64,000 nucleotides of DNA from the NCBI GenBank assembly GCA_002162675.1, contig MAAE01000028.1, forward strand, positions 1-64,000. The letters are read 5' to 3'. Origin of the DNA: Colwellia sp. 39_35_sub15_T18. GTDB lineage: Bacteria > Pseudomonadota > Gammaproteobacteria > Enterobacterales > Alteromonadaceae. Shown one piece after another: positions 29,292 through 47,763 of this stretch. Every line of letters starts with the position of its first letter. The first letter of the stretch is position 1. The notes under the pieces are model-generated. The model saw only the letters and a list, made by a program, of their open reading frames with translations, was not told the origin of the DNA and did no database searches. The position numbers were made by a program, and so were the translations under genes.

Positions 29292-29411
29292 TTATTTATA
29301 TAACGCCAACAATTCAGCCACTTTTTTACGCTTATGGCCTTTTTGACTAATGGTACGCGCTACCTGAATAGATTTAGCTTTAGCGGCGTGTTCATAAATT
29401 TTACGTGTCCA
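29292..29411 (-). pseudogene. dam: Orphan C-terminal tail of a Dam methylase
   Basis: The minus strand encodes TRKIYEHAAKAKSIQV, then ARTISQKGHKRKKVAELLALYK and a stop (29292-29294). This matches the extreme C-terminus of Dam (E. coli VRRSIS...RKKVDELLALYK) and also the tail of the complete dam at 46743. Similarity stops upstream of TRKIY, next to the inverted repeat at 29415-29448. It points the same way as rpe and damX. It is best read as the 3' remnant of the native dam gene. Confidence 0.85.
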
Positions 29412-29414
29412 AAT

Positions 29415-29448
29415 AGTATAGCTAACGGCACCTGCTGTTAGCTATACT
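29415..29448. repeat. Perfect inverted repeat at the dam breakpoint
   Basis: AGTATAGCTAAC (29415-29426) and GTTAGCTATACT (29437-29448) form a perfect 12-base inverted repeat with a 10-base loop. It lies exactly between the orphan dam tail and the last gene of the urease operon. It could be that operon's terminator stem, although no T run follows on the minus strand, or a mark of the insertion end. Confidence 0.75.
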
Positions 29449-29455
29449 CCTAAAT

Positions 29456-29635
29456 TTACAATGCTTTCATTTTTTTTCTTAGCCATTTAAAACCCGTTAC
29501 GGTAACCGCAACCAGTAAAAAGAATAAAACGGTGTGTATCACATCGTGGCCGATGCTTTCACCTAAAAAATGGTCGTTATGCGCTTGCGCTTGTACGCTA
29601 AAAATAAAAGCTAAGATATACGTTAAAAATTTCAT
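29456..29635 (-). CDS. Small membrane protein at the end of the urease operon
   Basis: This is a 59-residue protein, start ATG 29635 with GGAG six bases upstream. It has a signal peptide-like N-terminus (MKFLTYILAFIFSVQAQA), a short His/Asp-rich stretch (HNDHFLGESIGHDVIH) and one transmembrane helix ending in WLRKKMKAL. It lies 71 bases after ureG on the same strand. The His-rich start after the signal recalls HupE/UreJ nickel permeases, but only one helix follows. No known family is assigned; a nickel-related role is a guess. Confidence 0.6.
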   Translation of the reverse strand: MKFLTYILAFIFSVQAQAHNDHFLGESIGHDVIHTVLFFLLVAVTVTGFKWLRKKMKAL

Positions 29636-29706
29636 TATTATCTCCAATAATTGTTTGATGCTTATTATGTGCTATGTGATTTTTACTAAGTATAAATGTA
29701 TAAAAC

Positions 29707-30324
29707 CTATACGGTTAACATGCCTTCGCTTTCAATAAAGTTAATTATCTCAGCAAGGCCTTGTTTCGTTTTCATATTGCTAAAAATAAAGGGTCTGTCA
29801 TCGCGCATTTTTTTAGTGTCTCTGTCCATGACTTCAAGTGAAGCGCCAACTAAGTCAGCAACATCAATTTTATTAATAATTAATAAATCAGATTTAGTAA
29901 TGCCGGGACCCCCTTTACGTGGAATTTTATCACCTGCAGATACATCAATCACATAAAGCGTTAAATCTGACAGTTCAGGGCTGAATGTCGCACTGAGGTT
30001 ATCGCCACCACTTTCAACGAGTACAAAATCTAAATCAGGGTGACGTTCTTGTAATTCATCAATCGCGGCTAAGTTCATTGACGCGTCTTCTCTAATCGCG
30101 GTATGTGGACAGCCGCCTGTTTCTACCCCAATAATACGATCTTCAGCTAAGGCATTGTTTTTTGTCAAAAACTCAGCGTCTTCTCGGGTATAAATATCGT
30201 TAGTGACAACAGCCATGTTGTATCGGTTACTGAGTGCTGAACATAAGTTGCGTAATAAAGCGGTTTTACCTGAGCCTACGGGGCCGCCAACACCTATGCG
30301 TAATACTTGTTTTTTATTCATCAT
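29707..30324 (-). CDS. ureG: Urease accessory GTPase UreG
   Basis: This is a 205-residue SIMIBI-class GTPase that drives nickel insertion into urease with UreD, UreF and UreE. The P-loop GPVGSGKT is at 14-21, then the metal-binding CPH in [23 protein letters not shown] and [11 protein letters not shown]. Length is normal. It is separated from ureF by about 220 bases that hold a repeat-like segment, an unusual gap in such operons. Confidence 0.97.
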
Positions 30325-30546
30325 GATATGACCTTTTGTTAATTATTTTGTATTTATTCAGCTTAGAAATATTTACCACAGAGAGCACCGAGGTGTTAAC
30401 GCACGACACTGAACATAACAAAGTCTCTGTGTCGGCTCGAAGAGCCCTCTGTCAAGCATCGCGGCTCGGTGGTGAACAGTTACATTATTTTTTAAACTAT
30501 CTGTTACTGATTAACTACGCTTAGTCCCTAAAGCGAGTGACTAATT
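30325..30546. other. Spacer with repeat-like sequence between ureF and ureG
   Basis: Related motifs recur on both strands: ACCACAGAGAGCACCGAGG near 30374, CTCTGTGTCGG near 30424, and GCTCGGTGGT near 30465. The segment is less AT-rich than its surroundings and looks like a degenerate dispersed element inserted in the urease operon. No coding function seen. Confidence 0.45.
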
Positions 30547-31260
30547 TTAACTCCTAAATAAACGCGTATATTGTGTTTCGTGCCAAGCACTTGCCATGGC
30601 TAAATGAGGCAGACTGGCACCAATTTCATCATCGGGTAATTCATTAGCAATATGCATAGCACGCTCAACTTGTTCCGTTAATTCAAATAACAGATTTTGA
30701 GATTGAGTTTGTCCTAACGGTACTAATTTGGTTGCTGCCGCGACCTGATTATCAATATAGGTCCAGCAAAATCCACTTTGTGCATAATGTAGGTCTAATT
30801 CAAATAAATGGGCTGCCACGGTAAAAGCACTAACAAAGCTGACATTTTTTTGCACTAAAATGGCTTGATATTGGTCGGTGTCAACAGAAGTTAACAAGGT
30901 TAATAACCTAACCAGTGCTTTACCCATCGCAAGATCGGCCAGTCGAAATTCATTACTTTCTCTAGTGGCAATGAGGAGTTGATTCCATTGGTTAAATTCA
31001 TCAAAATTATTGTTTTGTAATGCACAATATAGGCGTTTTATTACGGCTAAATCCGTCGGTGCAATGGCTTGTGTTAAGGTTAAAGCCACCCAGTCATAAG
31101 TTTCTTTATCATTGTTTATCCAACCACTGTCGATGGCGTACTCTAAACCTTGCGAAAATGAAAATCCACCCACAGGTAAATTGGCACTGCATAATTGCAG
31201 CAACCGATTTAATTTTAGCGGCGTAGTTTGTTGCAATACGCTATTAATGCGAGTGGTCAT
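30547..31260 (-). CDS. ureF: Urease accessory protein UreF
   Basis: This is an all-helical urease chaperone of about 237 residues. It shows the family opening [21 protein letters not shown] and later [21 protein letters not shown]. It joins UreD and UreG in the apo-urease activation complex. ATG 31260 (MTTRIN) is chosen because the family alignment begins there, although the frame is open to 31365. The start overlaps the end of ureE by 17 bases. Confidence 0.95.
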
Positions 31261-31738
31261 GGCTGTGTTCGTGGTTGCTACTGTGTGAATGACTTTGTTT
31301 GTTTTTAGATGATTTACTGCCATAAGCACCGCTTTCAGGCTCAAAAATTGCGGGTGTTTTATCAACGGTTAAACCGTAGTTCTCAGCCAACTCTTCCAAC
31401 ACATGATCTGGTTTGAAACGTAACCATAATTCGCCGATTTGCATTGACGTATGGCGGTTTCCAAGGTGATAACACACTTTGGAAAACGATAACCAGTCGG
31501 TAGCACTTGCGGTAGAAACAGGCTCAGCCTGACCTTTTACTTCAACAAATTGCCCACATTCACTTTTTAAAATTTCCCCCACCAATAACGGATGACCACG
31601 TTCAACAAAAATGCCAATATCAGCCCCTTTATCGGTGGTGCTCTTTATCCGTGCTTTTTTACGGGTCTCTTGATCTAAGGTGATCGAATCTGTGATTGGC
31701 TCATGGCAATGCGACAATCGTTCGTATACTTTTATCAT
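31244..31738 (-). CDS. ureE: Urease accessory nickel chaperone UreE
   Basis: This is a 164-residue metallochaperone. Family segments are [29 protein letters not shown] (metal His) and [14 protein letters not shown]. It ends in a His-rich tail ([16 protein letters not shown]) that binds nickel. Start ATG 31738 has AGGAAAAATC in front; the open frame runs further upstream into ureC. It lies 44 bases after ureC. Confidence 0.95.
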
Positions 31739-31782
31739 GATTTTTCCTGTGTTTTTATTGCTTGTTTTAATTGTTACGTTTA

Positions 31783-33486
31783 TTAAAACAAGCAATAACG
31801 TTGGGCGAGTGGCAGCTCGGTAGCGGGTTCACACGTTAATAATTCGCCATTAGCTCTTACTTCATACGTTTGTGCATCCACTTCTATTTTGGGTTGCCAA
31901 TTGTTATGAATCATATCGTCTTTGCCAATATTCCGGGTATTTTTACACTCGCCAATCATGCGAGTCATACCGACTTTTTCAGGTACCTTTTTTTCAATCG
32001 ACGCTTTAGACATAAAGGTCATTGAAATTTTGGCTGCGGCGAGTCCGTGCGCACCAAACATTGGACGATAATATACTGGCTGTGGTGTTGGAATTGACGC
32101 ATTGGCATCTCCCATGGGGGCTGCCGCAATAAAGCCAGATTTTAAAATCATAGCGGGTTTTATGCCAAAAAATGCCGGTTTCCATAACACTAAGTCCGCT
32201 AATTTACCCACTTCAATTGAGCCCACTTCATGACTGATACCATGGCTGATTGCAGGGTTAATGGTATATTTTGCAATATAACGTTTCAGGCGGAAGTTAT
32301 CATTTTGCTCGGTATCGGGCGCTAATGGACCGCGCTGTTGTTTCATTTTATGGGCTGTTTGCCAAGTACGGGTGATCATTTCACCAACGCGTCCCATGGC
32401 TTGAGAATCAGAGGCAATCATACTTATTGCGCCTAAATCATGCATAACGTCTTCTGCGGCGATACTTTCTTTACGGATACGCGAATCAGCAAAAGCAACA
32501 TCTTCAGGGATAGAGGGATCTAAGTGATGGCAAACCATTAACATATCTAAATGTTCATCAATGGTATTGATGGTGTATGGACGTGTTGGATTCGTTGATG
32601 AAGGCAATACATTAGGTTCGCCACAGGCACGAATAATATCAGGTGAATGTCCGCCACCTGCACCTTCGGTATGGTAAGTATGAATAGTACGGCCTTTAAA
32701 AGCGCCAATGGTGTCTTCAACAAAACCTGATTCATTTAAGGTGTCAGTATGAATGGCTATTTGCACGTCATATTTTTCGGCAACCGATAAGCAGTTATCA
32801 ATAGAGGCAGGGGTTGTCCCCCAATCTTCATGCAGTTTTAAACCACAAACACCTGCTTCAATTTGCTCTTCTAGGGCAAGCGGTAAACTTGTATTACCTT
32901 TGCCTAAAAAGCCAAAGTTCATGGGGAAGTCATTGGTTGCTTGTAGCATTTTATGAATATACCAAGGCCCGGGTGTACACGTGGTAGCGTTAGAACCTGT
33001 TGCCGGTCCTGTTCCGCCACCAATCATAGTGGTTACACCAGACATCAGCGCTTCTTCAACTTGCTGGGGACAAATAAAATGAATATGTGCATCGATACCG
33101 CCAGCAGTAAGTATTTGTCCTTCACCTGCGATAACTTCAGTACCTGGGCCAATCTCAATATCTATATTGTCTTGAATGTCAGGGTTGCCCGCTTTACCAA
33201 TAATGGCGATACGCCCGTCTTTAATCCCCACATCGGCTTTAACAATCCCCCAATGGTCAAGAATAAGTGCATTGGTGATCACTAAATCGACGGTTGCATA
33301 ACATGACGCCTGACTTTGCCCCATGCCGTCGCGAATAACTTTACCGCCACCAAATTTAACTTCTTCGCCATATTCGGTGAAATCTTGTTCAACTTCCAAC
33401 CACAGGTCGGTATCAGCTAAGCGAACCTTGTCACCTACTGTTGGACCAAACATATTCGCGTAAGCCTGTTTATCGATTGTAGCCAT
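31783..33486 (-). CDS. ureC: Urease alpha subunit
   Basis: This is the catalytic subunit, 567 residues, normal length. All active-site residues are visible: His134 and His136 (DAHIHF), carbamylated Lys217 (GLKLHED), His246, His272, and the flap Cys319/His320 (MVCHHLDPS). It hydrolyses urea to ammonia and carbamate at a two-nickel centre. It is two bases from ureB. The neighbouring urt genes supply urea. Confidence 0.98.
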
Positions 33487-33488
33487 GG

Positions 33489-33806
33489 TTATCTATTTCC
33501 TTCTATGTGGCCTTGCACGTCGCCGCGAAAACCAAATATGCGGCGTTTACCGCGATACGCAATTAACGTCACTTCGCGTTGTTGTCCGGGTTCAAACCTA
33601 ACGGCGGTACCTGAGGTAATGTCTAAGCGATAACCTTTGCAAGTTTCGCGGTCAAATTTTAAGGCTGGATTTACTTCATAAAAGTGATAATGAGAGCCGA
33701 TCTGAATGGGGCGGTCACCTGAATTTGCCACGGTAACGACTATTGGTTCACAACCGACATTAAGCTGATGAACGCCTTCAGCAGTTATTATTTCACCAGG
33801 TATCAT
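33489..33806 (-). CDS. ureB: Urease beta subunit
   Basis: This small structural subunit has about 105 residues, with [11 protein letters not shown] at its start and [12 protein letters not shown] and [16 protein letters not shown] further on. ATG 33806 is chosen because GGAG lies six bases before it and MIPGE is the family start; an ATG at 33818 overlaps the ureA stop. It is coupled to ureA. Confidence 0.96.
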
Positions 33807-33817
33807 ATTGAACTCCA

Positions 33818-34120
33818 TTAAACGATAGGGTTATGCACAGTAACGAGCTTGGTGCCGTCGGGAAATGTTGCCTCAACCTGCACATCAGGAATTAACGTGG
33901 CAATGCCGTCCATGACTTGCTCGCTGCTGAGTAATGTTTTGCCATAATCCATTAACTCAGCAACGGTTTTTCCATCGCGTGCACCTTCAATGATTTCCAT
34001 TGAAATATAGGCCATCGCTTCAGGGTAATTTAATTTTAACCCTCGATTTAAACGACGTTCCGCTAATAATGCGGCGGTAAAAATTAGTAATTTGTCTTTT
34101 TCTCTCGGTAATAAATCCAT
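33818..34120 (-). CDS. ureA: Urease gamma subunit
   Basis: This is a 100-residue subunit with the family sequence [29 protein letters not shown] and a [13 protein letters not shown] end. Separate gamma and beta genes are the usual bacterial form. It lies 62 bases after ureD. Confidence 0.97.
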
Positions 34121-34182
34121 AAGTTTCTCGGTTATCGCTATGGTTAAATTTCATTTAAAATGAGTCATTGTATTTTACTGTG

Positions 34183-35112
34183 TTAGGTATACCAAATACG
34201 GGGTTGAGTCGCTTGTTTCTCTACGGTTAAGGGTCTAACTATTTGCCACAATAAAAGGAAAAACTTTTTACATTGTTCCGCATGATGACCTAAATAACGT
34301 ATGACTAATAAACCGTCAATATCGGTAATGCTAATGTGTTTTTGTGCTTGATTATTTTCGACAATAGCACGCATTGCTGCAATCGCTGTTTTACGTTGGG
34401 ACTTGTTTAATTGCTGTGGAGCGTACACTAAGAAGGTTGCAAAAACGCTATTGCCAGCCAATCCCGCAGGATGATGCAATACGTTGTTTTTTGCGGTGAC
34501 GGCAATGCGATCATGATATTGCAATGTCCCTTCAACAAAGACACGATTCAACTGACTATATTGACCTTGTGTAAATAGTTGTTCAGAGCTAGGCAAGCCC
34601 ATGCAAGTAATATCCCACCCTAAATAAACACTGGTATTGGTTAAGTGAATGTCGACGGTATTAAATCCGTCAGCGCCATTATAAACGATGGTCTCTTGTG
34701 GGAAATTTTCACATTTCGCTTGATTTTTTACATTGAGCGTTGTGATTTGTATTTGCTTAGAGATGCCAATATTGGCATCTGTCCGTGCACGATAAAAGCG
34801 ATTAGCACCTGGGGTGGTGACTAAGGTATGTGCTCTGTCATCAAGGTTAATCTCTACATGCAACTCGTCACCTGAAACGATTCCGGCGGGTGGGTGTAAT
34901 AAATAGATGTGAGCGCAGTCTCTTCCTTCCGGATAAAAAGCTTTTTGTACCGTTAAAGGGCCATTTCGTCGGGTTCGGCGCAACTGAGTACCTAAGGCAG
35001 TACAGCTAAAGTCGAGCGCTAAACTGGCGAGCCACTGCCTGCTTTTACTCTCCCTTAGTGCTGAAGCCGCTATGGTGTTAATTACCGTACTGGTTGCTGT
35101 GCTTTGTGTCAT
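34183..35112 (-). CDS. ureD: Urease accessory protein UreD
   Basis: This is a 309-residue scaffold protein of the urease activation complex. Recognisable segments are FYPEGRDCAHIYLLHPPAGI, GDELHVEI, ITTPGANRFYR-like VTTPGANRFYRA and ETIVYNGA. It binds apo-urease before UreF and UreG. It comes directly after urtE, linking transporter and enzyme in one operon. Confidence 0.94.
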   Translation of the reverse strand: MTQSTATSTVINTIAASALRESKSRQWLASLALDFSCTALGTQLRRTRRNGPLTVQKAFYPEGRDCAHIYLLHPPAGIVSGDELHVEINLDDRAHTLVTTPGANRFYRARTDANIGISKQIQITTLNVKNQAKCENFPQETIVYNGADGFNTVDIHLTNTSVYLGWDITCMGLPSSEQLFTQGQYSQLNRVFVEGTLQYHDRIAVTAKNNVLHHPAGLAGNSVFATFLVYAPQQLNKSQRKTAIAAMRAIVENNQAQKHISITDIDGLLVIRYLGHHAEQCKKFFLLLWQIVRPLTVEKQATQPRIWYT

Positions 35113-35175
35113 TTCTACTATGTTGCCTTAAAATGATTTCCAATAGTGTTGAGTTAGCTGCCAAATACTAGGCCA

Positions 35176-35877
35176 TTAAACCGCTAGATATTTACCCACT
35201 AATTCGTCGGTTAAATCAGTCATTGGCCCCGATGCTATCACGTGGCCTTTTTCCATTAAATGAAACGCTTGACCCACGGCTCTAGCAAAGGGTAATTTTT
35301 GTTCTACTAAGATTATTGTCATGCCGCTTTCTTCATTTAACCTCAGTAATACATCACGAATAAGCTGCACAATATTTGGCTGAATACCTTCGTTTGGCTC
35401 ATCTAAAATAAGTATATTTGGATTAAGAACTAAAGCTCTGCCAATTGCAAGTTGCTGCTGCTGACCGCCTGATAAATCACCACCTCGTCGGTGTAACATT
35501 TCTTTAAGCACCGGAAACAATTCATAAATATGTTCAGGAATTGTTTTACTGGTTTGGCGTTTACAGTTAAGGCTAAGTTTTAAATTTTCTTCGACGGTTA
35601 ATTGCGGGAAAATATGGCGGCCTTGTGGCACATACCCTATGCCTAACTCAGGCCGTGATTCTACAGAGGCTTTAACGCAATCTTGGCCGTTAATGACTAA
35701 TGACCCCGTGCTAATGGGTAACATGCCCATAATGGTTTTTAATAAGGTGGTTTTACCTACGCCATTTCGTCCCATGATACAGGTACGAGAGCCTTTTTTT
35801 ATGGCTAAATCTAAATCCCAAAGAATTTGTGTGCCACCATATTTTTGATTTACATTTTTTAATTCAATCATAATCAT
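35176..35877 (-). CDS. urtE: Urea ABC transporter ATP-binding protein UrtE
   Basis: This is a LivF-type ATPase of 233 residues. Walker A is GRNGVGKTT near 36-44, signature LSGGQQQQLAIGRAL, Walker B LILDEPNEG and the H-loop/switch region VEQKL. It powers high-affinity urea uptake with UrtD. Two starts (35877 and 35871) are possible, two codons apart. Confidence 0.95.
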   Translation of the reverse strand: MIMIELKNVNQKYGGTQILWDLDLAIKKGSRTCIMGRNGVGKTTLLKTIMGMLPISTGSLVINGQDCVKASVESRPELGIGYVPQGRHIFPQLTVEENLKLSLNCKRQTSKTIPEHIYELFPVLKEMLHRRGGDLSGGQQQQLAIGRALVLNPNILILDEPNEGIQPNIVQLIRDVLLRLNEESGMTIILVEQKLPFARAVGQAFHLMEKGHVIASGPMTDLTDELVGKYLAV

Positions 35878-35907
35878 TCTCTTACTGTCGTGCTTTATTA
35901 GTATGCG

Positions 35908-36732
35908 TTACTGCTTTGGTTCGCTATCACCATCTTCACCAAGGTACACTTGAATCACTTCAGGATTTGATTGAATTTCACTCATGGTGCCTTCAGCAAG
36001 CACCGAACCTTGATGTAATACAGTAACGGTTTTTGCAATAGAACGAACAAAGGCCATGTCGTGTTCAACCACTATCACGGAATGTTCACCCGCCAATGAC
36101 GTTAACAATTCAGCGGTACGTTCAGTTTCTTGTCCTGTCATGCCGGCTACGGGTTCGTCCACTAAAAGCACACGTGGTTTAGCGGCTAACAACATGCCAA
36201 TTTCTAACCATTGTTTTTGCCCATGTGATAACCGGCCTGCTGGGTAGTGCGCTTCTGTTAGTAAACCGATAGTATCAAGAATTTCACCAATACGGTCTTT
36301 ATCTTCACCAGACAATTTATGAAACAGAGAAGTCCATATCCCTTTATCGCCCGCCAGACTCAGCTCTATATTTTCAAAGACGGATAACGCTTCAAAAACC
36401 GTTGGCTTTTGAAATTTACGACCAATACCTGCCAGAGCAATTTCAGACTCATCTAGTTGTAATAAATCAATTTGTTGCCCAAAACTCACTTTACCGGTAT
36501 CAGGCCGTATTTTTCCGGTAATAACGTCCATTAATGTTGTTTTTCCAGCACCGTTAGCGCCAATTAAACAACGTAGTTCTCCGTCATTAATATATAAATT
36601 TAAATCGTTTAAGGCTTTAAAACCATCGAAGCTAACGCTGACATTTTCTGCATATAAAATAACACCATGACGAGTATCAGGTTTTATATTGTCGGTTGCG
36701 TAAAGTGGCGAACCTGCTTTATTTACTATCAT
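35908..36732 (-). CDS. urtD: Urea ABC transporter ATP-binding protein UrtD
   Basis: This is a LivG-type ATPase of 274 residues. Walker A GANGAGKTT, signature LSHGQKQWLEIGMLL (the LSHGQ variant typical of UrtD) and VDEPVAGMT are present. A 25-residue N-terminal extension precedes the ATPase core. It overlaps urtC by four bases. Confidence 0.95.
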   Translation of the reverse strand: MIVNKAGSPLYATDNIKPDTRHGVILYAENVSVSFDGFKALNDLNLYINDGELRCLIGANGAGKTTLMDVITGKIRPDTGKVSFGQQIDLLQLDESEIALAGIGRKFQKPTVFEALSVFENIELSLAGDKGIWTSLFHKLSGEDKDRIGEILDTIGLLTEAHYPAGRLSHGQKQWLEIGMLLAAKPRVLLVDEPVAGMTGQETERTAELLTSLAGEHSVIVVEHDMAFVRSIAKTVTVLHQGSVLAEGTMSEIQSNPEVIQVYLGEDGDSEPKQ

Positions 36733-37901
36733 GACTTCATCTCCGCGTCAGCGACTTTTTCTTTATCAATGTCACCTTTAGCGGCATCAACTTTAACTAT
36801 GGATAATTTATCAAATAAGTTAGCCAACAAACCGGCAATACCTTTTGGTAAATACAAGGTTACCAAAACAAATAATCCGCCTAAACCAAATAACCAAGCT
36901 TCAGGCATGATCGCGGTAAAACGTGTTTTTGCGTAGCTCACTGCTATGGCGCCAATGATTGCGCCGTATAAAGTACAGCGACCACCAATAGCTACCCAAA
37001 TAACCATTTCAATAGAGTTTAATGGCGAGAATTCACCCGGATTAATAATACCAACTTGCGGCACATATAACGCGCCGGCAATACCGGCTAATATAGCAGA
37101 CACCACAAATATCCAAACTTTGTAATGTTCAGGTTTAAAACCTACAAAGCGAACACGATTCTCTGCATCACGGGTTGCGGTAATAACACGGCCCATTTTA
37201 GAGTTAACGATATAATTACTGATAAAATAACCTATGGCTAAGGCAAATGCTGTCGCTATAAATAAAGCCAGTTTTGTATGCGGGTTTTGCAGCGAGTAAC
37301 CCAAAATTTCTTTAAAGTCAGTCAAGCCATTATTCCCACCAAAACCCATTTCATTTCTGAAAAAAGCGAGCATTAGCGCGTAAGTCATTGCTTGTGTCAT
37401 TATGGATAGATATACGCCACTGACACGTGAACGAAACGCCATCATGCCAAACACGTAAGCTAACAAACCAGGGCCAATGAAGACCATGGCAACCATCCAC
37501 CAAACGCTGCTGGAACCTGCCCAAAACCATGGCAGTTCTGTTAAGTTTAAAAATACCATAAAGTCAGGTAAATCTGGATTACCGTAAACACCTCGGTCAC
37601 CAATTTGGCGCATTAAATACATCCCCATGGCGTAACCACCTAAGGTGAAAAACGCACCATGTCCTAAGCTTAAAATACCGCAGTATCCCCAAACTAAATC
37701 AATGGCTAGCGCGAGAAGGGCATAACATAAATACTTGCCTAATAAGCTTACGGTATAGTTGCTCACATGAAGCAACGAGCCTTCAGTAAAAAACAAGTTA
37801 CATACCGTAACGTATAAAGTAGCGATAAAAAGTGTGCCAACGACAATATGTAGATGGCTTAACTTAGTGATGGATTTTTGAAAAAGAGTTGATAATTGCA
37901 T
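36729..37901 (-). CDS. urtC: Urea ABC transporter permease UrtC
   Basis: This is a LivM-type inner membrane permease of 390 residues with about ten transmembrane helices. Typical are LVWGYCGILSLGHGAFFTLGGY, GNNGLTDF and SIEMVIWVAIGGRCTLYG. The charged C-terminal tail is rich in Lys and Asp. It lies 12 bases after urtB. Confidence 0.95.
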   Translation of the reverse strand: MQLSTLFQKSITKLSHLHIVVGTLFIATLYVTVCNLFFTEGSLLHVSNYTVSLLGKYLCYALLALAIDLVWGYCGILSLGHGAFFTLGGYAMGMYLMRQIGDRGVYGNPDLPDFMVFLNLTELPWFWAGSSSVWWMVAMVFIGPGLLAYVFGMMAFRSRVSGVYLSIMTQAMTYALMLAFFRNEMGFGGNNGLTDFKEILGYSLQNPHTKLALFIATAFALAIGYFISNYIVNSKMGRVITATRDAENRVRFVGFKPEHYKVWIFVVSAILAGIAGALYVPQVGIINPGEFSPLNSIEMVIWVAIGGRCTLYGAIIGAIAVSYAKTRFTAIMPEAWLFGLGGLFVLVTLYLPKGIAGLLANLFDKLSIVKVDAAKGDIDKEKVADAEMKS

Positions 37902-37913
37902 GTTAGCTACCTA

Positions 37914-39584: not shown

Positions 39585-39602
39585 TGCGTTTTCCTTTTAA
39601 TT

Positions 39603-39649
39603 AAAAAAATGAGATTGACCTAATCGATGTAATGTAAGGGTCAATCTCA
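39603..39649 (-). terminator. Attenuating terminator between urtA and urtB
   Basis: Read on the minus strand, TGAGATTGACC and GGTCAATCTCA form a perfect 11-base stem with an 18-base loop. A run of seven T follows at once (the A run at 39603-39609). It lies 18 bases before the urtB start and is a good intrinsic terminator inside the operon, probably leaky. Confidence 0.8.
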
Positions 39650-39874
39650 GTGCGAAGTTTAATAAAAATAATAAACATACACTCAAAACATTATTTTTAA
39701 GTACCGTGTTAACTAATTCTTTGTTAATTAGGTTGCGATAAACGCAAAAATTGCTTTGAGTATATGGGAGACAAAAGCGAAAGTTATTCAGGTTTCGTTT
39801 ATCATCGCCATATAGCATTATAAAAATAAACGGTCATTTAATAGGGAATAAAATGACCGTTGAGAGGCTAAACT

Positions 39875-41158
39875 TTAGAAGTTTTGACCTGAACATTTAG
39901 CTGTTTTTACATCGAAGCTGCCACATTCAATAGGTGCAGTCCAATCTGAAATAAGGTTTTTTGAGCTAGGTAAAAAATCTGACCATGCGTCGCCAATCAC
40001 TGTATCTGGCGTTGAAGAAACCACTTCAAATTGACCATCTGCTTGAATCTCACCAATAAGTACAGGCTTAGATAAGTGATGGTTAGGGTTCATCACGGCA
40101 ATACCGCCAGTAAGGTTAGGTACCGCAACACCAATAAGCGCTTGCTCAACTGCATCTACGTCAGTAGTACCTGCTTTCTCAACGGCTTTTACCCACATTT
40201 TGAAACCAATGTAAGTCGCTTCCATTGGATCATTTGTTACACGCTTGTCATCACCAATGTATTTTTTCCAGCTAGCGATAAAGGCTTCGTTCTCGTCAGA
40301 CTCAACACTTTGGAAATAGTTCCATGCTGCCAAGTGACCGATAAGTGGTTTAGTATCAAAACCAGAAAGCTCTTCTTCACCAACAGAGAATGCAACAACC
40401 GGAATGTCTTCAGCTGATATACCTTGGTTACCTAGTTCCTTGTAGAAAGGAATGTTAGCATCACCATTAATAGTTGAAACTACAGCCGTTTTCTTACCTG
40501 CTGAGCCAAACTTTTTAATGTCTGAAACAATACCTTGCCAATCAGAATGTCCAAATGGTGTGTAGTTGACCATGATATCTGCATCTTTAACGCCTTTAGA
40601 TTTTAAGTACGCTTTTAAGATTTTATTGGTTGTACGAGGGTAAACGTAATCCGTACCCGCTAACACCCAACGTGTAGCACCGATTTCTTCCATTAAATAA
40701 TCAACTGCTGGAATAGCTTGTTGGTTTGGCGCAGCACCGGTGTAAAATACGTTTTTAGAGGATTCTTCACCTTCGTATTGTACGGGGTAGAATAATAAAC
40801 CGTTCAACTCTTCAAGTACTGGTAACGCAGACTTGCGAGAAACCGAGGTCCAACAACCGAAGATAACGTCTACTTTTTCTTTGGCTAAAAGTTCACGTGT
40901 TTTTTCAGCAAATAGAGGCCAGTTTGATGCAGGATCAACCACAACAGGCTCAAGTTGCTTACCTAAAACACCGCCCGCTTTATTTTGTTCCTCGATCATC
41001 ATTAAAACAGTGTCTTTCAACGTAGTTTCACTGATGGCCATGGTGCCTGATAAGGAATGTAAAACACCTACTTTTATGGTGTCGGCTGCGTTTGCAAAGT
41101 TGGCCATTAAACCACTTGCTACGATTGAACTTGCTACTAAGAGCTTTTTAAATTTCAT
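39875..41158 (-). CDS. urtA: Urea ABC transporter substrate-binding protein UrtA
   Basis: This is a 427-residue periplasmic binding protein with signal peptide (cut near NAA). Family segments are IKVGVLHSLSGTMAISE, GGVLGKQLEPVVVDPASNWP, IFGCWTSVSRKSALPV, QYEGEESS and the C-terminal SDWTAPIECG. It captures urea for UrtBCDE. It lies 30 bases after the porin gene and is followed by a hairpin terminator. Confidence 0.97.
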   Translation of the reverse strand: MKFKKLLVASSIVASGLMANFANAADTIKVGVLHSLSGTMAISETTLKDTVLMMIEEQNKAGGVLGKQLEPVVVDPASNWPLFAEKTRELLAKEKVDVIFGCWTSVSRKSALPVLEELNGLLFYPVQYEGEESSKNVFYTGAAPNQQAIPAVDYLMEEIGATRWVLAGTDYVYPRTTNKILKAYLKSKGVKDADIMVNYTPFGHSDWQGIVSDIKKFGSAGKKTAVVSTINGDANIPFYKELGNQGISAEDIPVVAFSVGEEELSGFDTKPLIGHLAAWNYFQSVESDENEAFIASWKKYIGDDKRVTNDPMEATYIGFKMWVKAVEKAGTTDVDAVEQALIGVAVPNLTGGIAVMNPNHHLSKPVLIGEIQADGQFEVVSSTPDTVIGDAWSDFLPSSKNLISDWTAPIECGSFDVKTAKCSGQNF

Positions 41159-41188
41159 TATTTTTCCTTATCGTGTAAATTTGTTTGG

Positions 41189-42163
41189 TTAGAAAGTAAT
41201 TAAGGCTTCAAGAGCGATAGAATCAACATCTACATCGTTGATTTCGTCCATGCGGTATTCAAAAACAATTAATAAATTGTCGTTAACGACATAACTAGGA
41301 GAAATAGTGATACCACTTGCATCTTCAACTGTTGCGCCGCTTGCATCTTCAATTTCCCAGTCGTTGTAACGAAGAGTTAATCCAACCTTGTCACTTATCG
41401 CGTAATTTGCCATAAATAAATAACCAGTCGCTTCAGAATCAATGCCGAATCTACCCGCATAAGCACCCGCATTTTCAGACATGTTGTATTCAACCGCTAA
41501 GGTTAAAGCGTCTTTTGAATAACTAGCCCATGTATTAATTAACGTTGTATCTTCATCTGTCCCTGCTAAGTCATCGACAGAGTAAAAAGCTTTAATGGTA
41601 ATTTCATCTGTTGGCATTAACGCTAACATTGTTTCGATACCTGGCTTTTCTGAATCAGTTGCGCTTGGGTCTGCTAAATCATTAACAACAGAAACGGCTA
41701 TCGCGTATTTTTCAGTGCTATAAAGACCCGAAATACCTTGTTGATAGTAACCGTAGAAATATGGTGCATAACCAGTAGCAGAGTATTGAAATAAACCCGT
41801 TGGCTCTTCAGTTTCCCAGCCGGTATAACTTAAGAAGCGACCTGCTTTAACACTCAAGTTATCGCTTAAGGCATAAGTAATGAATGCTTGTTCAAGGTCA
41901 ACACCTTCATCTTCATTTTGGTATTCAACATCAACACTTGCTGTTAATTTGTTACCAAAGTCATAAGAAATATTAATCTCAACTTGGTCAAGACCTGAAT
42001 CAGAAGTACTACTTTCACCATCGATATCGCTATACAAGTAAGACATGTCAATAAAGCCAGAAATACTTAGTGGATCTTTCTTATCTTCTGCTTGAGCTGA
42101 TGTGGCACCTAATGCCAGTAGTAAAGTAGCCGCGACCGGTGTTAATTTAGTGCTTAGTTTCAT
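41189..42163 (-). CDS. Outer membrane beta-barrel porin, first gene of the urea operon
   Basis: This is a protein of about 324 residues with signal peptide ending SAQA. It is a beta-barrel with SISGFIDMSYLYSD at the start, alternating strands, and a C-terminal ALEALITF. It resembles the OmpL-like (BBP2) putative porins. ATG 42163 is preferred (GGGAA upstream) over 42199. As it directly precedes urtA, it probably lets urea or related small amides through the outer membrane; that role is inferred. The upstream gap to the divergent sensor gene holds the operon promoter; no convincing consensus sites were found in it. Confidence 0.75.
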   Translation of the reverse strand: MKLSTKLTPVAATLLLALGATSAQAEDKKDPLSISGFIDMSYLYSDIDGESSTSDSGLDQVEINISYDFGNKLTASVDVEYQNEDEGVDLEQAFITYALSDNLSVKAGRFLSYTGWETEEPTGLFQYSATGYAPYFYGYYQQGISGLYSTEKYAIAVSVVNDLADPSATDSEKPGIETMLALMPTDEITIKAFYSVDDLAGTDEDTTLINTWASYSKDALTLAVEYNMSENAGAYAGRFGIDSEATGYLFMANYAISDKVGLTLRYNDWEIEDASGATVEDASGITISPSYVVNDNLLIVFEYRMDEINDVDVDSIALEALITF

Positions 42164-42452
42164 ATTAAATTCCCAGTAAGTAAAAGTGAAAGCGTGCATT
42201 AGGTTATCTTTTTAGTTGATAACTCTTTAACGCAAGGCTATTTCGAACTGGAGCTAGTATGTCGATTTTGGTCAATGATAGAAATTCGTAAAAGCGCGCA
42301 ATAGCCTACGCAAAAATGCGCATACTAATTTTGCTTTTGGTTGTGTAGGATGACCATGTGCGCGCGAGCGTTATAATATATTTTGGTGATGTTTGTTTTA
42401 TTGCCTGTTTATTTTTATTTGAAAAAATTTATTTCGAGCAAGCTATTTTTGT

Positions 42453-45400
42453 ATGCAGTCTAATCAAAAAATATTACCTACACGAAGAACGTATAATAAG
42501 CTGGTCGCTAATGAAATGATGGAGGATTTTGCTCTACGTTTTACCGCCCGAAGAGCAAGACATTGGTCACTGAGTCGTATTGCAATTACCGCATTAGGCA
42601 TTGTTTCTTTTCTTGTTTTAGAGGCGATTGGTGGTGCAATTACCCTAAGTTATGGTTTTGAAAACTCAGCATGGGCTATTCTGGCAGTCATGTCCGTTGT
42701 TTTCTTAACCGGCTTACCCATTAGTTATTACGCCGCTAAATACGGTGTCGATATCGATTTACTGAGCCGAGGTGCTGGGTTTGGTTATATTGGCTCTACC
42801 ATTGCATCGTTAATTTATGCCTCATTTACGTTCATATTTTTCGCCCTTGAAGCGGCCATTATGTCAATGGCATTACAAATTTTATTTGGCATACCGCTCA
42901 GTATTGGCTATGTCATTAGCGCTATTATCGTTATCCCGTTAGTCACTCATGGTATTGCGTATATCAGTCGATTTCAGGTATGGACACAGCCCTTATGGAT
43001 TATTTTACAATGCCTGCCGTTGTATTTTGTTTTCAACCATGATGATAGTCACTTACAGGGGTGGATAAGTTTTACGGGGCAAGCTAGCGAGCAAGGCAGT
43101 TCTTTTAATCTTTTGCTTTTTGGCGCGGCATCATCCGTCTTACTTTCGCTCGTTGCGCAAATTGGTGAGCAAGTAGATTTCTTGCGTTTTTTACCTGAAA
43201 AACCTAAAAAACAGACGTGGCGTTGGTGGTGTGCCCTTATTGCGGCAGGACCCGGTTGGATATTATTTGGCGCTTTAAAACTATTTTTAGGCTCATTTCT
43301 AGCGTATTTAGCGTTGCAGCAGGGCGTACCTGCCAACCTAGCCGACGACCCCGCTCATATGTATCAATTAGCATACGGTTATGTGTTTGATAACCCTGAT
43401 CTTGTAGTGATTTTTGCCTGTGTATTTGTGGTTATTTCACAATTAAAAATTAATGTCGCTAATGCCTACGCCGGCTCATTGGCTTGGTCTAATTTTTTCT
43501 CTCGAGTTACCCATACACATCCCGGGCGTGTGGTATGGATGATTTTTAACGTAGCCATTGCTTTATTGTTAATGGAATTAGGTATTTATCAAACCATTGA
43601 AAGCATGTTGTCGGTTTATTCGGTCATTGTGTTGGCTTGGTTGAGTTCTGTTGTAGCGGATTTAGTGATTAATAAGCCACTAGGTATTAGCCCTAAACAT
43701 ATCGAATTTAAACGTTCGCACTTATATGACATTAACCCCGTTGGTGTTGGCTCGATGTTAATTGCTTCACTGGCCGGTTTTACTGCGCACCTTGGCTGGT
43801 ATGGCGATACTATAAAGGCGTTAGCGTCTTTTATCGCCTGTGGATTACCTTTTATTACGGTTCCCCTTATTGGATGGCTCACCCAGGGAAAGTATTATTT
43901 AATAAACCCTGATAGAGAAGAGGTGACTCAGGTTACTCAATGTCATATCTGTGAAAACAGCTTTGATAAAGAAGATATGACTTTCTGTCCTGCTTACGGC
44001 AAAGCGATTTGTTCGTTATGTTGTAGTTTGGATGTACGTTGTGGTGATCAATGCCGTACAGAAGCAACGTTATCTAAACAGTCACATCACTTTTTAAAAC
44101 GATTTTTCAGTGAACGCTTTTTACGTAACGTATCAAAACCGTTTATGCATTTTATTACCGTGACTTTAGGGTTAAGTTTTATTGGCGCAGGTATTCTTTT
44201 TCTTATTTATATTCAACTGCCAATGGAAAGCGATGAAATTAAACATGTGTTTGCTAACACGTTAATTAAAATATTCTTCTTGTTAGTTATTATTATTGGT
44301 GTCGTGAGTTGGCTGTTTACACTAGCACGTAATAGTAATGTCTTGGCGCTTAGAGAATTACGCTCACAAACTAAGGCTCTTGCTAACGAATTTAGCGCTC
44401 ATGAAAAAACGTCGTTGGCGTTACAGAATTCTAAAGAAGTTGCTGAGGCAGCTAATGAGGCAAAAAGTCGTTATCTTGCCGGCTTAAGTCATGAATTAAG
44501 AACGCCACTTAATGTGTTGTTAGGCTATGCTCAATTACTCAGTCAAGATCAAGATTTACCTTCAAAACAACGAGAAACACTCGCTATTGTTAAACGCAAC
44601 GGCGAGCATTTAGCTGACTTAATTGAAGGGCTGTTAGAGATATCTAAAATAGAAGCAGGCCGTGTAACGCTTCAGCGCGACGAATTTAATTTAAAAGCGA
44701 TTATGTATCAGCTCGTAGAAATGTTTCAAATGCAAGCAAACCAAAGAGGTATAGCCTTTAATTATATTACTAAAGGGTCATTGCCAGATTATGTCGCGAC
44801 AGATAAACAACGATTTCGCCAAATATTAATTAATCTAATTTCTAATGCGATCAAGTACACCGAGCAAGGCTCAGTTACGTTTGAGCTTAACTATCGTAAT
44901 CAAGTAGCACATTTTAGTGTTACCGATACCGGCGTTGGTATCTCTCAAGAAAACCAAGAGCTGATTTTCAAACCTTTCGAACAAGTACGTAATGCCCATA
45001 CTCAAATGATTGGCGGCACTGGCTTAGGGTTAACTATTTCACGTTCACTAGCAGAGCTGATGGGAGGTGAAATATCCTTAACCAGTGTATTAGGGCAAGG
45101 TTCTACCTTTAAGTTTCGTTTAATGTTATCAACGATTCAACGAGAACAAAGCGAACCTGAATATGCAAAAACAAAAGCGATTGGTTATGATGGTACACGT
45201 CAAACGATATTAGTGGTTGATGATGATGATGATCAGCGTCAATTAATGGACTATTTGCTCGCACCATTAGGTTTTACGGTGTTATGCGCACATGATGCCG
45301 AACAAGGGTTCAGCTTTTTAGCGCAGCAACATGTTGATTTAATATTACTTGATGTCTGTATGCCTGATATTGACGGTTGGCAAATGGTACGAATATTACG

Positions 45401-45830
45401 AGAAAAAAAATATTTAATGCCCGTTATTATGATCTCAGCAAATGCCCGTGACGCAGAATTTAACTTACAAGCAGAAGGTTATCATAATGAGTATGTTGCG
45501 AAACCTGTTAATTTTGATACCTTGCTTGGAAAAATTGCACGCTTATTAGAGCTACGTTGGCAATACCAGAACATACAAAAAACTAAGTTATTACCGTTAG
45601 ATAATAATGACTTATTAAAGCCTGTTGTGACAGCTGTAGAGTATCAGGCGTTAATGGCATTGGCGGAAATTGGCTACTTGTCTGGTTTTAAAAATAAACT
45701 TTCTGAGTTCAATGATCAATTTTATTTACCCGATGATGTTCAGTCACAGCTAGCTGATTATCTTGAACTTTGTAATTTTCCAGCCATTATTCAGTACTTA
45801 AATGAGATCAACCATGAACAAACAAATTAG
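42453..45830 (+). CDS. NCS1-transporter / histidine kinase / receiver hybrid sensor
   Basis: This is a 1125-residue fusion. Residues about 20-480 form an NCS1 (cytosine/purine/allantoin permease-like) membrane domain of about 12 helices. A Cys-rich module follows (about 497-533, CHIC, CSLCC, RCGDQC) that could bind zinc. Then come two more helices (about 560-630), a HisKA domain with His680 in GLSHELRTPLN, a HATPase domain (SNAIKYT, GTGLGLTI) and a receiver with Asp967 in LLDVCMPD. It is divergent from the urea operon and overlaps the LuxR-type regulator gene. It probably senses urea or a related nitrogen compound through the transporter domain; this is inferred. Confidence 0.85.
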   Translation: MQSNQKILPTRRTYNKLVANEMMEDFALRFTARRARHWSLSRIAITALGIVSFLVLEAIGGAITLSYGFENSAWAILAVMSVVFLTGLPISYYAAKYGVDIDLLSRGAGFGYIGSTIASLIYASFTFIFFALEAAIMSMALQILFGIPLSIGYVISAIIVIPLVTHGIAYISRFQVWTQPLWIILQCLPLYFVFNHDDSHLQGWISFTGQASEQGSSFNLLLFGAASSVLLSLVAQIGEQVDFLRFLPEKPKKQTWRWWCALIAAGPGWILFGALKLFLGSFLAYLALQQGVPANLADDPAHMYQLAYGYVFDNPDLVVIFACVFVVISQLKINVANAYAGSLAWSNFFSRVTHTHPGRVVWMIFNVAIALLLMELGIYQTIESMLSVYSVIVLAWLSSVVADLVINKPLGISPKHIEFKRSHLYDINPVGVGSMLIASLAGFTAHLGWYGDTIKALASFIACGLPFITVPLIGWLTQGKYYLINPDREEVTQVTQCHICENSFDKEDMTFCPAYGKAICSLCCSLDVRCGDQCRTEATLSKQSHHFLKRFFSERFLRNVSKPFMHFITVTLGLSFIGAGILFLIYIQLPMESDEIKHVFANTLIKIFFLLVIIIGVVSWLFTLARNSNVLALRELRSQTKALANEFSAHEKTSLALQNSKEVAEAANEAKSRYLAGLSHELRTPLNVLLGYAQLLSQDQDLPSKQRETLAIVKRNGEHLADLIEGLLEISKIEAGRVTLQRDEFNLKAIMYQLVEMFQMQANQRGIAFNYITKGSLPDYVATDKQRFRQILINLISNAIKYTEQGSVTFELNYRNQVAHFSVTDTGVGISQENQELIFKPFEQVRNAHTQMIGGTGLGLTISRSLAELMGGEISLTSVLGQGSTFKFRLMLSTIQREQSEPEYAKTKAIGYDGTRQTILVVDDDDDQRQLMDYLLAPLGFTVLCAHDAEQGFSFLAQQHVDLILLDVCMPDIDGWQMVRILREKKYLMPVIMISANARDAEFNLQAEGYHNEYVAKPVNFDTLLGKIARLLELRWQYQNIQKTKLLPLDNNDLLKPVVTAVEYQALMALAEIGYLSGFKNKLSEFNDQFYLPDDVQSQLADYLELCNFPAIIQYLNEINHEQTN

Positions 45831-46701
45831 TGATGTTGTGCTTGTTGTTGATGATTCACCTGAATCATTAGGCATGTTAAACATTGCCCTAAATATTCAA
45901 GGTTATACTGCATTGGTTGCCTTAAATGGTATTCAGGCGCTAGCAATATGTGACAAAATTAAGCCAGACATCATTTTATTAGACGCAGTAATGCCTGAAA
46001 TGGATGGTTTTGAAACCTGTAAAAGGCTTAAAGTCCTTTTACCTAACACGCCCATTATTTTTATGACCGGCCTCACGGATGTTGAAGATGTTGTTAAAGG
46101 CTTTGAAGCGGGCGGCATTGATTATGTCACGAAGCCGATATCACCTGATGAAGTGATTGCGCGTATTAAAACGCATATTCAAACCGCAAAACTTGCGCTA
46201 AGTACACAAGATGCACTGGATCATGTGGGTAATAATGTTTTTTGTGTAAATAATGAAGGCTACCTTTCTTGGGCAACCCCTCATGTGCATGCGTTAATTG
46301 AAAAAACAGCAACAGAGGATAAAAGTCCTTGGGCAACCCTTGCAAGTTATTTTCAAGATTGGTTACAAAGCGACGTATCCACTAATTTACACGTAAAGTG
46401 CTTTAATGAACCGATTGAAATAGTGTATGAACGTGCGCAGAAAAATATGCATTTATTGCATATTGAAGAGTATAAACAAGCAAAAAGTGCCGATGATTTA
46501 AAAGAAAACTTACCTATTACCAAACGTGAATCAGAAGTGTTGTTTTGGGTTTCATATGGCAAAACTAGTTGGGAAATTTCACAAATTCTTGCCATGAGCC
46601 CAAGAACAGTTAATAAACATTTAGAACAAATATTCCGCAAGCTTGGCGTAGATAATAGAACTTCAGCGGCGGCTATTTCAATAAGAATATTAGAGGCTTA
46701 A
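45814..46701 (+). CDS. LuxR-family response regulator
   Basis: This is a regulator of about 295 residues. The receiver (about 5-120) has VVDDSPES, phospho-acceptor Asp in ILLDAVMPEMDG and Lys in VTKPIS. The C-terminal LuxR/NarL helix-turn-helix has TKRESEVLFWVSYGKTSWEI and SPRTVNKHLEQIFRKLGV. The middle 100 residues are unassigned. ATG 45814 overlaps the sensor gene by 17 bases, so the pair is co-translated. The likely target is the divergent porin-urt-ure operon. Confidence 0.85.
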   Translation: MNKQISDVVLVVDDSPESLGMLNIALNIQGYTALVALNGIQALAICDKIKPDIILLDAVMPEMDGFETCKRLKVLLPNTPIIFMTGLTDVEDVVKGFEAGGIDYVTKPISPDEVIARIKTHIQTAKLALSTQDALDHVGNNVFCVNNEGYLSWATPHVHALIEKTATEDKSPWATLASYFQDWLQSDVSTNLHVKCFNEPIEIVYERAQKNMHLLHIEEYKQAKSADDLKENLPITKRESEVLFWVSYGKTSWEISQILAMSPRTVNKHLEQIFRKLGVDNRTSAAAISIRILEA

Positions 46702-46742
46702 TAAATAATATTTACCCGTAATTTACGTAGGATAAGAGAATA

Positions 46743-47579
46743 CTATTTATAAAGCGCCATCAATTCACCAACTTTAATTCGGCCCTGCCCTTTGCGGCTA
46801 ATGGAACGACGTACCTTTAAGGTAGACAGCTTATTTGCACCATTATAAATTTCACGAGTAAATTTAAGGTCGTGGTTAGAGATTAAAGTAGGAATGCCCT
46901 CCTTTCTTACTGTTTCCGCACATTTAACTAATCGTATTTGTTCTTCATCGTCAAACGTATTGCCTGCATATGAAGTAAAATTAGACGTTCTATTTATTGG
47001 TGAATAGGGCGGATCACAATATATAACATCACCAATTTCAGCTTGGCTAAAAGCAACATCAAAATCACCCTGCATAAACTCAGCACGTTGAGATTTTTCT
47101 GCAAAAAACTCCAGCTCAGCTTTTGGAAAGTAAGGTTTTTTATATCGACCAAAAGGAACATTATAACCACCTGATTTGTTATATCGGCATAAACCGTTAT
47201 AACCATGGCGATTCATATAAAGGAAAATTAATGAACGATAAAAAGGATCAGCCGACGCATTAAACTTCTTTCTTAGCTCATAGTATTGCTCAGGAATATT
47301 GTAGTGACTTTGAAAAAAATGCTCGGCTTCAGTTATAAACTTAGAAGAGTCATTTTTCATGATATTGAATAAATTGATCAAGTCCTTGTTCATATCAACA
47401 AGTAAGTACTCATCAAACTCCATGTTTAAGAACACAGAGCCACCACCAACAAAAGGCTCTATTAACCTTTTCTTGTTTTTCAATGGAAGTAACCCTTTGA
47501 TATCGTCTACAAGTTTTTTCTTTCCTCCAGCCCATTTAAGTGCGGAACGCATATCTTTTGTGTTATTACGTTCAGCCAA
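46743..47579 (-). CDS. dam: DNA adenine methylase (Dam), complete
   Basis: This is a GATC-type N6-adenine methylase of about 278 residues. AdoMet motif I region is LKWAGGKKKL and EPFVGGGSVFLN; the catalytic DPPY is at 189-192 in IYCDPPYSP. Target-recognition segments RHGYNGLCRYN and VPFGRYKKPYFP match E. coli Dam. It ends VGELMALYK. The start may be TTG 47579 (AGAGG upstream) or ATG 47552. It overlaps the preceding short frame by 8 bases. Separate remnants of another dam lie at 29292 and 47725-47763, so this copy is probably not the native one. Confidence 0.92.
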   Translation of the reverse strand: MAERNNTKDMRSALKWAGGKKKLVDDIKGLLPLKNKKRLIEPFVGGGSVFLNMEFDEYLLVDMNKDLINLFNIMKNDSSKFITEAEHFFQSHYNIPEQYYELRKKFNASADPFYRSLIFLYMNRHGYNGLCRYNKSGGYNVPFGRYKKPYFPKAELEFFAEKSQRAEFMQGDFDVAFSQAEIGDVIYCDPPYSPINRTSNFTSYAGNTFDDEEQIRLVKCAETVRKEGIPTLISNHDLKFTREIYNGANKLSTLKVRRSISRKGQGRIKVGELMALYK

Positions 47580-47763
47580 TGAATACCTCTGGATTATTAT
47601 TCTTATGCTCTAAGGGAAGACTTCTTTCAATTAAGTTAGTGATTATACATTGAACATCAAATTTCATACATTCAAAATTAACGTTATCGTAGCAGTATGA
47701 CTTCTTACTTTTCTCGTAGGAGTAGCCAGCCCACTTTAAAAACGCACGATTTTTCTTACTCAT
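47572..47763 (-). pseudogene. Dam N-terminal remnant joined to an unrelated tail
   Basis: The first 13-14 codons, MSKKNRAFLKWAG, are the canonical Dam N-terminus (E. coli MKKNRAFLKWAGGKY). From about 47724 the frame continues as YSYEKSKKSYCYDNVNFE and about 30 more residues with no Dam similarity, up to a stop at 47572-47574 that overlaps the start of the complete dam. The tail could be the end of a gene that accompanied the incoming dam, for example a restriction enzyme. It might be translated, but as a chimera. Confidence 0.7.

Follow-up and report, generated by a model that had tools for sequence, protein, structure and literature searches.

In a 64,000-nucleotide stretch of Colwellia sp. 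39_35_sub15_T18 (contig MAAE01000028.1, positions 1 to 64,000; hereafter the window), the native copy of the DNA methylase gene dam, here called dam2, has probably been taken over by a foreign substitute dam (dam1-W) that is translationally coupled to the start of the old gene, with a urea module lying beside it as cargo. On the minus strand the genes run in the order aroK, aroB, damX, dam start fragment, complete dam, urea block, dam end fragment, small genes, rpe and trpS. The target gene is interrupted and its flanks are continuous, from damX to the dam2 start on one side and from the dam2 end to rpe on the other. A first-pass annotation of this DNA had proposed that an 18-kb urea block carrying its own dam split the native gene. 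Such a single-block history is weakened by the results presented here, which better support a recurrent takeover of dam with adjacent cargo.

The two orphan dam fragments first noticed at the borders of the block proved to be real, and sequence comparison identifies them as the two ends of one native dam2. The start fragment (remN) matches the dam2 start of G013 at 36/39 nt, which none of 60 shuffles equalled (genomes are given G numbers and stretches within them L numbers). Similarity to dam breaks off at 47725: the twelve top-scoring matches among dam starts all finish at query base 45-46. The protein of the end fragment (remC) shares 36/40 residues with the native dam2 C-terminus of G030, compared with 21/39 for the complete window dam, and its DNA is identical to G008 at 100/123 nt and to G030 at 99/123 nt. 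Codons 14 to ~230 of 272 (~217 middle codons) are missing, leaving dam2 reduced to 13 + 40 codons; the earlier description of dam as split is right as to the presence of both ends and falls short as to the missing middle. At the right junction, a 5-bp ATACT is shared and the recipient dam2 codons are deleted. The same ATACT, located at the hairpin end of the urea module, is also present in dam2 at the break point in four of the eight genomes compared (G030, G008, G006, G016). No direct repeats were seen by eye in the junctions at the block ends, where ~217 codons are lost and no repeat search was run.

Between the fragments lies a complete and different dam, as had been described (Table 1), and several comparisons indicate that dam1-W is foreign and derives from another deep dam lineage. 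Our panel of 79 genomes took in the window's own, 38 more from its genus, 9 from elsewhere in the family and 31 from elsewhere in the order, and dam was found in 77 of them. Within the genus, dam1 occupies the same locus in 22/38 genomes and is 66-71% identical to dam1-W, and dam2 is present in 16/38 with 54-59% identity; G037 carries both types and may be contaminated. The dam2 carriers have a native dam and no urea genes at dam, the kind of strain that the first-pass annotation had suggested looking for. One of them, G009, has a frame break near the dam2 start (L101 2557-3360), exactly at the KWAG codons, which may be a sequencing error because its ureC is also in pieces. Dam trees were built from 38 and 40 rows chosen from those at hand, with G009 and part of the dam2 rows left out. 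The window dam did not group with the dam1 of the genus: the approximately unbiased (AU) test rejected window dam with clade A (p 0.0036) and with clades A and B plus G125 (p 0.008), and, once the G383 dam had been added, window, G383 and clade A together (p 0.006). The dams of the window and of an element in G383 group together (support 96/88). At 79% identity, the G383 dam is the nearest kin among 394 genomes of the order, and no closer dam was found in the 79 relatives, 295 family genomes or 394 order genomes. An origin from phages or plasmids was considered and rejected for want of a close match in phage, plasmid or viral sets: none of 50,697 phage or 72,556 plasmid records gave a match of at least 60% identity, the 80 viral contigs listed reached at most 49%, and the dam1-W query returned no match in genome_contigs.

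Old and new gene are joined by the leader of dam1-W. In the window, the relic frame continues open through the leader to a TGA that overlaps the TTG of dam1-W; an open leader frame of such length occurred in 1.1% of shuffled leaders for the window (P 0.011) and in 0.08% for G383. Ribosomes starting at the old dam2 start would read this 63-codon frame to its stop, and through such coupling the newcomer dam would use the host gene's own start. Elsewhere in its own genome the leader had one other match only (19 bp, E 0.37).

The cut after codon 13 recurs in relatives that lack urea genes at dam. Decayed start relics cut after the KWAG codon were found upstream of dam1 in 6/21 dam1 loci (G027, G011, G015, G005, G010 and G029; 0/60 shuffles as good); none of the six has urea genes at dam, and G011 and G015 carry the urea module elsewhere in the genome. 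Left out of this count was G022 because of its chimeric Dam (L114 1610-2428), in which a dam2 start and a dam1 body are joined in frame at KWAGGK. The cut is thereby seen in four lineages (window, G027, G011/G015 and G005/G010/G029). A relic in G024 is borderline (1/60 shuffles as good), and no significant 39-nt relic was detected in G003, G017, G018, G019 and G026, that of G017 being merely suggestive in a gapped alignment. In G027 (L121 3545-3967), two stacked relics are each cut after the same codon: the counted one is a dam1 start, preceded by a decayed dam2 start found by alignment. Each counted dam2 relic is nearest to the dam2 type from its own part of the genus; among the 12 starts compared in the panel, the closest was G013 for the window, G006 for G011 and G015, G016 for G005 and G010, and G021 for G029. 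The first ten leader bases agree with those of the window at 9/10 and 8/10 positions for the G027 relics, 7/10 for G011 and 6/10 for G015, and, when shifted by one base, at 8 (G010), 7 (G029) and 5 (G005) of 10.

Given these relics in relatives without urea genes at dam, the urea block need not have made that cut. The view that the block entered dam and supplied a replacement is retained for the foreign replacement and called into question for the entry. The damX-rpe interval was compared in all 38 relatives, being broken over contigs or at a contig end in G007, G022, G026 and G030. Relatives showing both fragments without a urea block, which would have spoken against the first-pass annotation, exist for the start fragment; a second dam C-terminal piece was found in 0/38 of these intervals (tblastn, E 0.01) and is present in the window only.

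Takeovers of dam at the damX-dam-rpe locus appear to recur in the genus. On a species tree of MrcA, AroB and Rpe (37 rows, 8 of them without MrcA; G005 absent), a minimum of 6 or 7 changes of dam type is needed, the number varying with the coding of the window. The dam-rpe gap also holds accessory cargo of differing kinds in G003, G004, G008, G010, G017, G029 and G037, its genes presumptively named, so that different accessory genes share one interval in relatives as in an integrase-free cargo hotspot. No integrase was noticed in this cargo by eye, no family search having been run on its open reading frames. Cargo stretches in the gap lie at L100 3821-8900, L109 2149-5710, L095 2968-3982 and L133 2165-7154.

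The closest counterpart to the window is found in G383, a member of another family, whose native dam is interrupted at VVY/CDPPY by a unit that holds a tyrosine recombinase as well as a complete dam of the dam1-W type (L325 4900-11300). The native pieces match residues 11-187 (start) and 185-277 (end) of the window dam, and together they span the intact dam of G048, overlapping by 4 bp. Two larger genes lie between them, one with a phage-integrase domain (E 7e-11) and the other matching a site-specific integrase model only weakly, at a score far under the cut-off of that model. The frame of the truncated native gene stays open up to a stop that overlaps the start of the new dam, ATGCCTGA. Among 11 species of this genus, 10 gave a single dam match, to a full-length dam, and one shows the split architecture. 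Window and G383 unit are alike in the split native dam, the complete dam1-W-type dam on the damX side, the overlap of stop and start, the genes in between and the dam tail on the rpe side. The G383 unit differs in having a tyrosine recombinase, in entering at the CDPPY codons and in losing no dam sequence. A 534-aa gene is also part of the unit.

The ure, urt and sensor genes reported in the block were recovered by Pfam and TIGR models, together with a porin and a LuxR-type regulator. In the window, the urea module extends from the gene for the 59-aa protein through the regulator, with the hairpin as its end, and by sequence it appears to be a module separate from dam. Its gene content and order are the same in G009, G011, G015 and G021, and kinase, regulator and urt genes are linked in more remote bacteria too. 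The closest module is that of G009 (urtA 96%, regulator 88%), flanked by what we take to be an efflux-like cluster and a LysR-like gene. A ureC was detected at E 1e-100 in 7/38 relatives of the genus, G009 with its fragmented copy included. Urea-module stretches were fetched from ten relatives (G009, G011, G012, G014, G015, G021, G022, G041, G045 and G047; for G012 and G045, the ure part only), and none of the ten has a dam beside the module at E 0.01 within at least ~1.1 kb on either side. Dam and urea genes are therefore probably not one unit by origin, and the claim that the urea block carries its own dam was not borne out. A regulator alignment search likewise showed no Dam at E 1e-8 among the 80 loci listed. 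Urea-module genes were found in 0/38 of the damX-rpe intervals, the sole matches being a pair (27-29%) in G037, where they fall on an unrelated ABC transporter; among the genomes inspected, the module lies at dam in the window only. Codon-13 relics and urea modules without dam thus make the dam takeover and the arrival of the urea genes separable.

Table 1. Features of the dam locus and the urea module in the window (coordinates of the 64-kb stretch).
Feature	Position	Strand	Basis and remarks
remN	47725..47763	-	Codons 1-13 of native dam2, MSKKNRAFLKWAG
63-codon frame, dam2 start and leader	47572..47763	-	TGA overlapping TTG of dam1-W, TTGGCTGA
Leader of dam1-W	47580..47724	-	Begins TACTCCTACG; AGAGG ribosome-binding-like sequence 6 nt before TTG
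dam1-W, complete replacement Dam (predicted), 278 aa	46743..47579	-	Full-length TIGR00571 match, 296.8 bits (curated cut-off 114.85); PF02086; 79% to G383 element dam
Response regulator, receiver and LuxR-type domains, end gene of urea module	45802..46701	+	PF00072, PF00196; 88% to G009
Hybrid sensor histidine kinase of urea module	42453..45830	+	HisKA, HATPase_c, Response_reg; 81-82% to G011, G014, G015, G021
BBP2/OmpL-like porin of urea module	41189..42199	-	PF07642
urtA, urtB, urtC, urtD, urtE, urea ABC transporter	35176..41158	-	TIGR03407, 03409, 03408, 03410; urtD by position and ABC_tran
ureD, ureA, ureB, ureC, ureE, ureF, ureG, urease operon	29707..35112	-	Pfam
59-aa small protein	29456..29635	-	63% and 49% matches adjoining ureG in G009 and G012; no Pfam family
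Hairpin, 12-bp perfect inverted repeat after ure operon	29415..29448	-	Minimum free energy -20.3 kcal/mol, z -3.8
remC	29292..29411	-	Last 40 codons of native dam2, IWTRKIYEHAAKAKSIQVARTISQKGHKRKKVAELLALYK, with flanking stop

We propose that a unit entering dam brought dam1-W along as its substitute gene and that any integrase would have been lost since; for the window, this integrase step is an unproven candidate modelled on G383. The urea module, from regulator, kinase and porin through urt and ure to the end hairpin, would have come in as cargo and settled between dam1-W and the tail of dam2. The joint at the right end of the module may have formed at the ATACT that dam2 also carries, with loss of codons 14 to ~230 either in that step or afterwards.

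Several observations weigh against this history. As the first-pass annotation had already remarked, no integrase is visible: Pfam detected none among the 17 block genes, and a tblastn search of the 64-kb window with both G383 integrase genes gave a single match (E = 2). The entry codon is 13 in the window and ~180 in G383, and the two leaders show no similarity beyond chance (0.68 of shuffles as good). Likeness to the leaders of clade A, matched by shuffles at 0.003 (G003), 0.010 (G027), 0.030 (G018) and 0.18-0.85 (other five), is weak because a dam2 control, the leader of G006, scored 0.04, about level with the third-best of them. The window is sister on the species tree to G003, which has dam1-A, and a relic was not recognised in 15/21 dam1 relatives, though old relics decay. 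The ATACT match is just 5 bp, and one-step and two-step histories are indistinguishable. Finally, that dam1-W yields a protein active in GATC methylation is a prediction from its sequence.

The same entry site in independent lineages, as found here, would suit a site-specific integrative element, and relic-mediated recombination explains it too. In the latter case, a donor with relic, leader, dam1-W and urea genes would have recombined with an intact dam2 start, the relic serving as arm, with an illegitimate joint at the other end, and an integrase would never have been involved in the window lineage. The dam2 start is well conserved, unlike damX, yet the arm would measure only 39 bp. Junction codon and first leader bases are the same or similar in several lineages while the dam2 relics counted are of local type, which favours this route; the in-frame chimera of G022, the dam-rpe cargo without a noticed integrase and the ATACT at the right joint fit it as well. 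A comparable displacement model is provided by the type VI secretion system (T6SS) modules of Vibrio, whose effector genes are displaced sequentially with orphan genes retained (PMC5361080). There, as at the dam locus, older modules give way to newer ones at a single site and relics stay behind, comparable to the stacked relics of G027; the dam locus differs in that what is displaced codes for a DNA methylase and in that relic and new gene are joined by an overlapping stop and start. In contrast, G383 demonstrates that an integrase route exists, and none of the genomes surveyed yielded a dam closer than its own; that survey did not look for the arrangement as such, and it leaves the route with no known donor. 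We consider recombination without an integrase rather unlikely for the window.

Less probable still is a one-step event, in which the 18-kb block, bringing a dam along with the urea genes, inserted into dam2 as a single unit. About equally fresh dam2 fragments and the position of dam and urea genes within the same borders would agree with it, but the ten fetched urea modules have no dam beside them and the start relics at the same codon occur without urea genes at dam. An assembly or binning artefact joining unrelated pieces is very improbable: although the genome is a draft of 72 contigs with a contamination of 2.76, the window lies within one 158-kb contig, GC is 0.36-0.40 across block, dam and flanks, the core genes on both sides are as in relatives, and the relic frame is continuous into dam1.

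Beyond the takeover proposed for the window, it is possible, though we put it forward only tentatively, that a class of mobile units captures gammaproteobacterial dam by in-frame entry at strictly conserved codons (KWAG at 13, CDPPY at ~180), with a complete substitute dam read from the host start via a coupled leader. Gene-integrating islands of the SGI1 and dusA kind rebuild the end of the gene they enter. Islands integrated in a conserved gene include Salmonella genomic island 1 (SGI1), which occupies the 3' end of trmE, and those of Vibrio located at dusA (PMC8409611). The window resembles them in that entry hits a housekeeping gene whose function would be preserved, and differs in that the gene is superseded by an entire divergent orthologue, only two scraps of it remain and no integrase was found. 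A literature search, judged from titles and abstract openings, returned no published account of dam as such an integration site.

If such a class exists, entry would disable the old dam and make the host dependent on the newcomer. The dam history of the genus would then be a succession of captures, one inside another in G027; integrases would soon be lost, and cargo such as urease would be parked beside the new dam. Dam directs mismatch repair as well as the timing of replication and gene switches. If a conserved chromosomal dam is repeatedly exchanged for deep-branching foreign copies by way of damage to the old gene, a core epigenetic enzyme would be acting as a displaceable allele, and the locus would provide a model for islands that secure their place by substituting for the gene they disrupt. 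As a caution, the dam found at the expected locus is not necessarily the ancestral one.

Relatives of the G383 integrase were detected at E 1e-20 in 18/394 genomes, G383 and G373 included, and none was found on viral contigs; the junction pattern gave one match in viral contigs, in an unrelated small protein, which was taken as chance. Eight of the 11 fetched places with an integrase relative adjoin what we take to be nth or queA-tgt genes. In L350-L357, integrase clusters of three or four genes adjoin a presumed nth-like gene in seven genomes and lie near presumed queA/tgt-like genes in one. G373, from another family, has a second dam end from YCDPPY on, ~9 kb from its complete dam (L360 948-1702 and 10109-11077). 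This second end adjoins a fragment 68% identical to the G383 integrase, and by eye its protein sequence resembles the last part of the complete dam.

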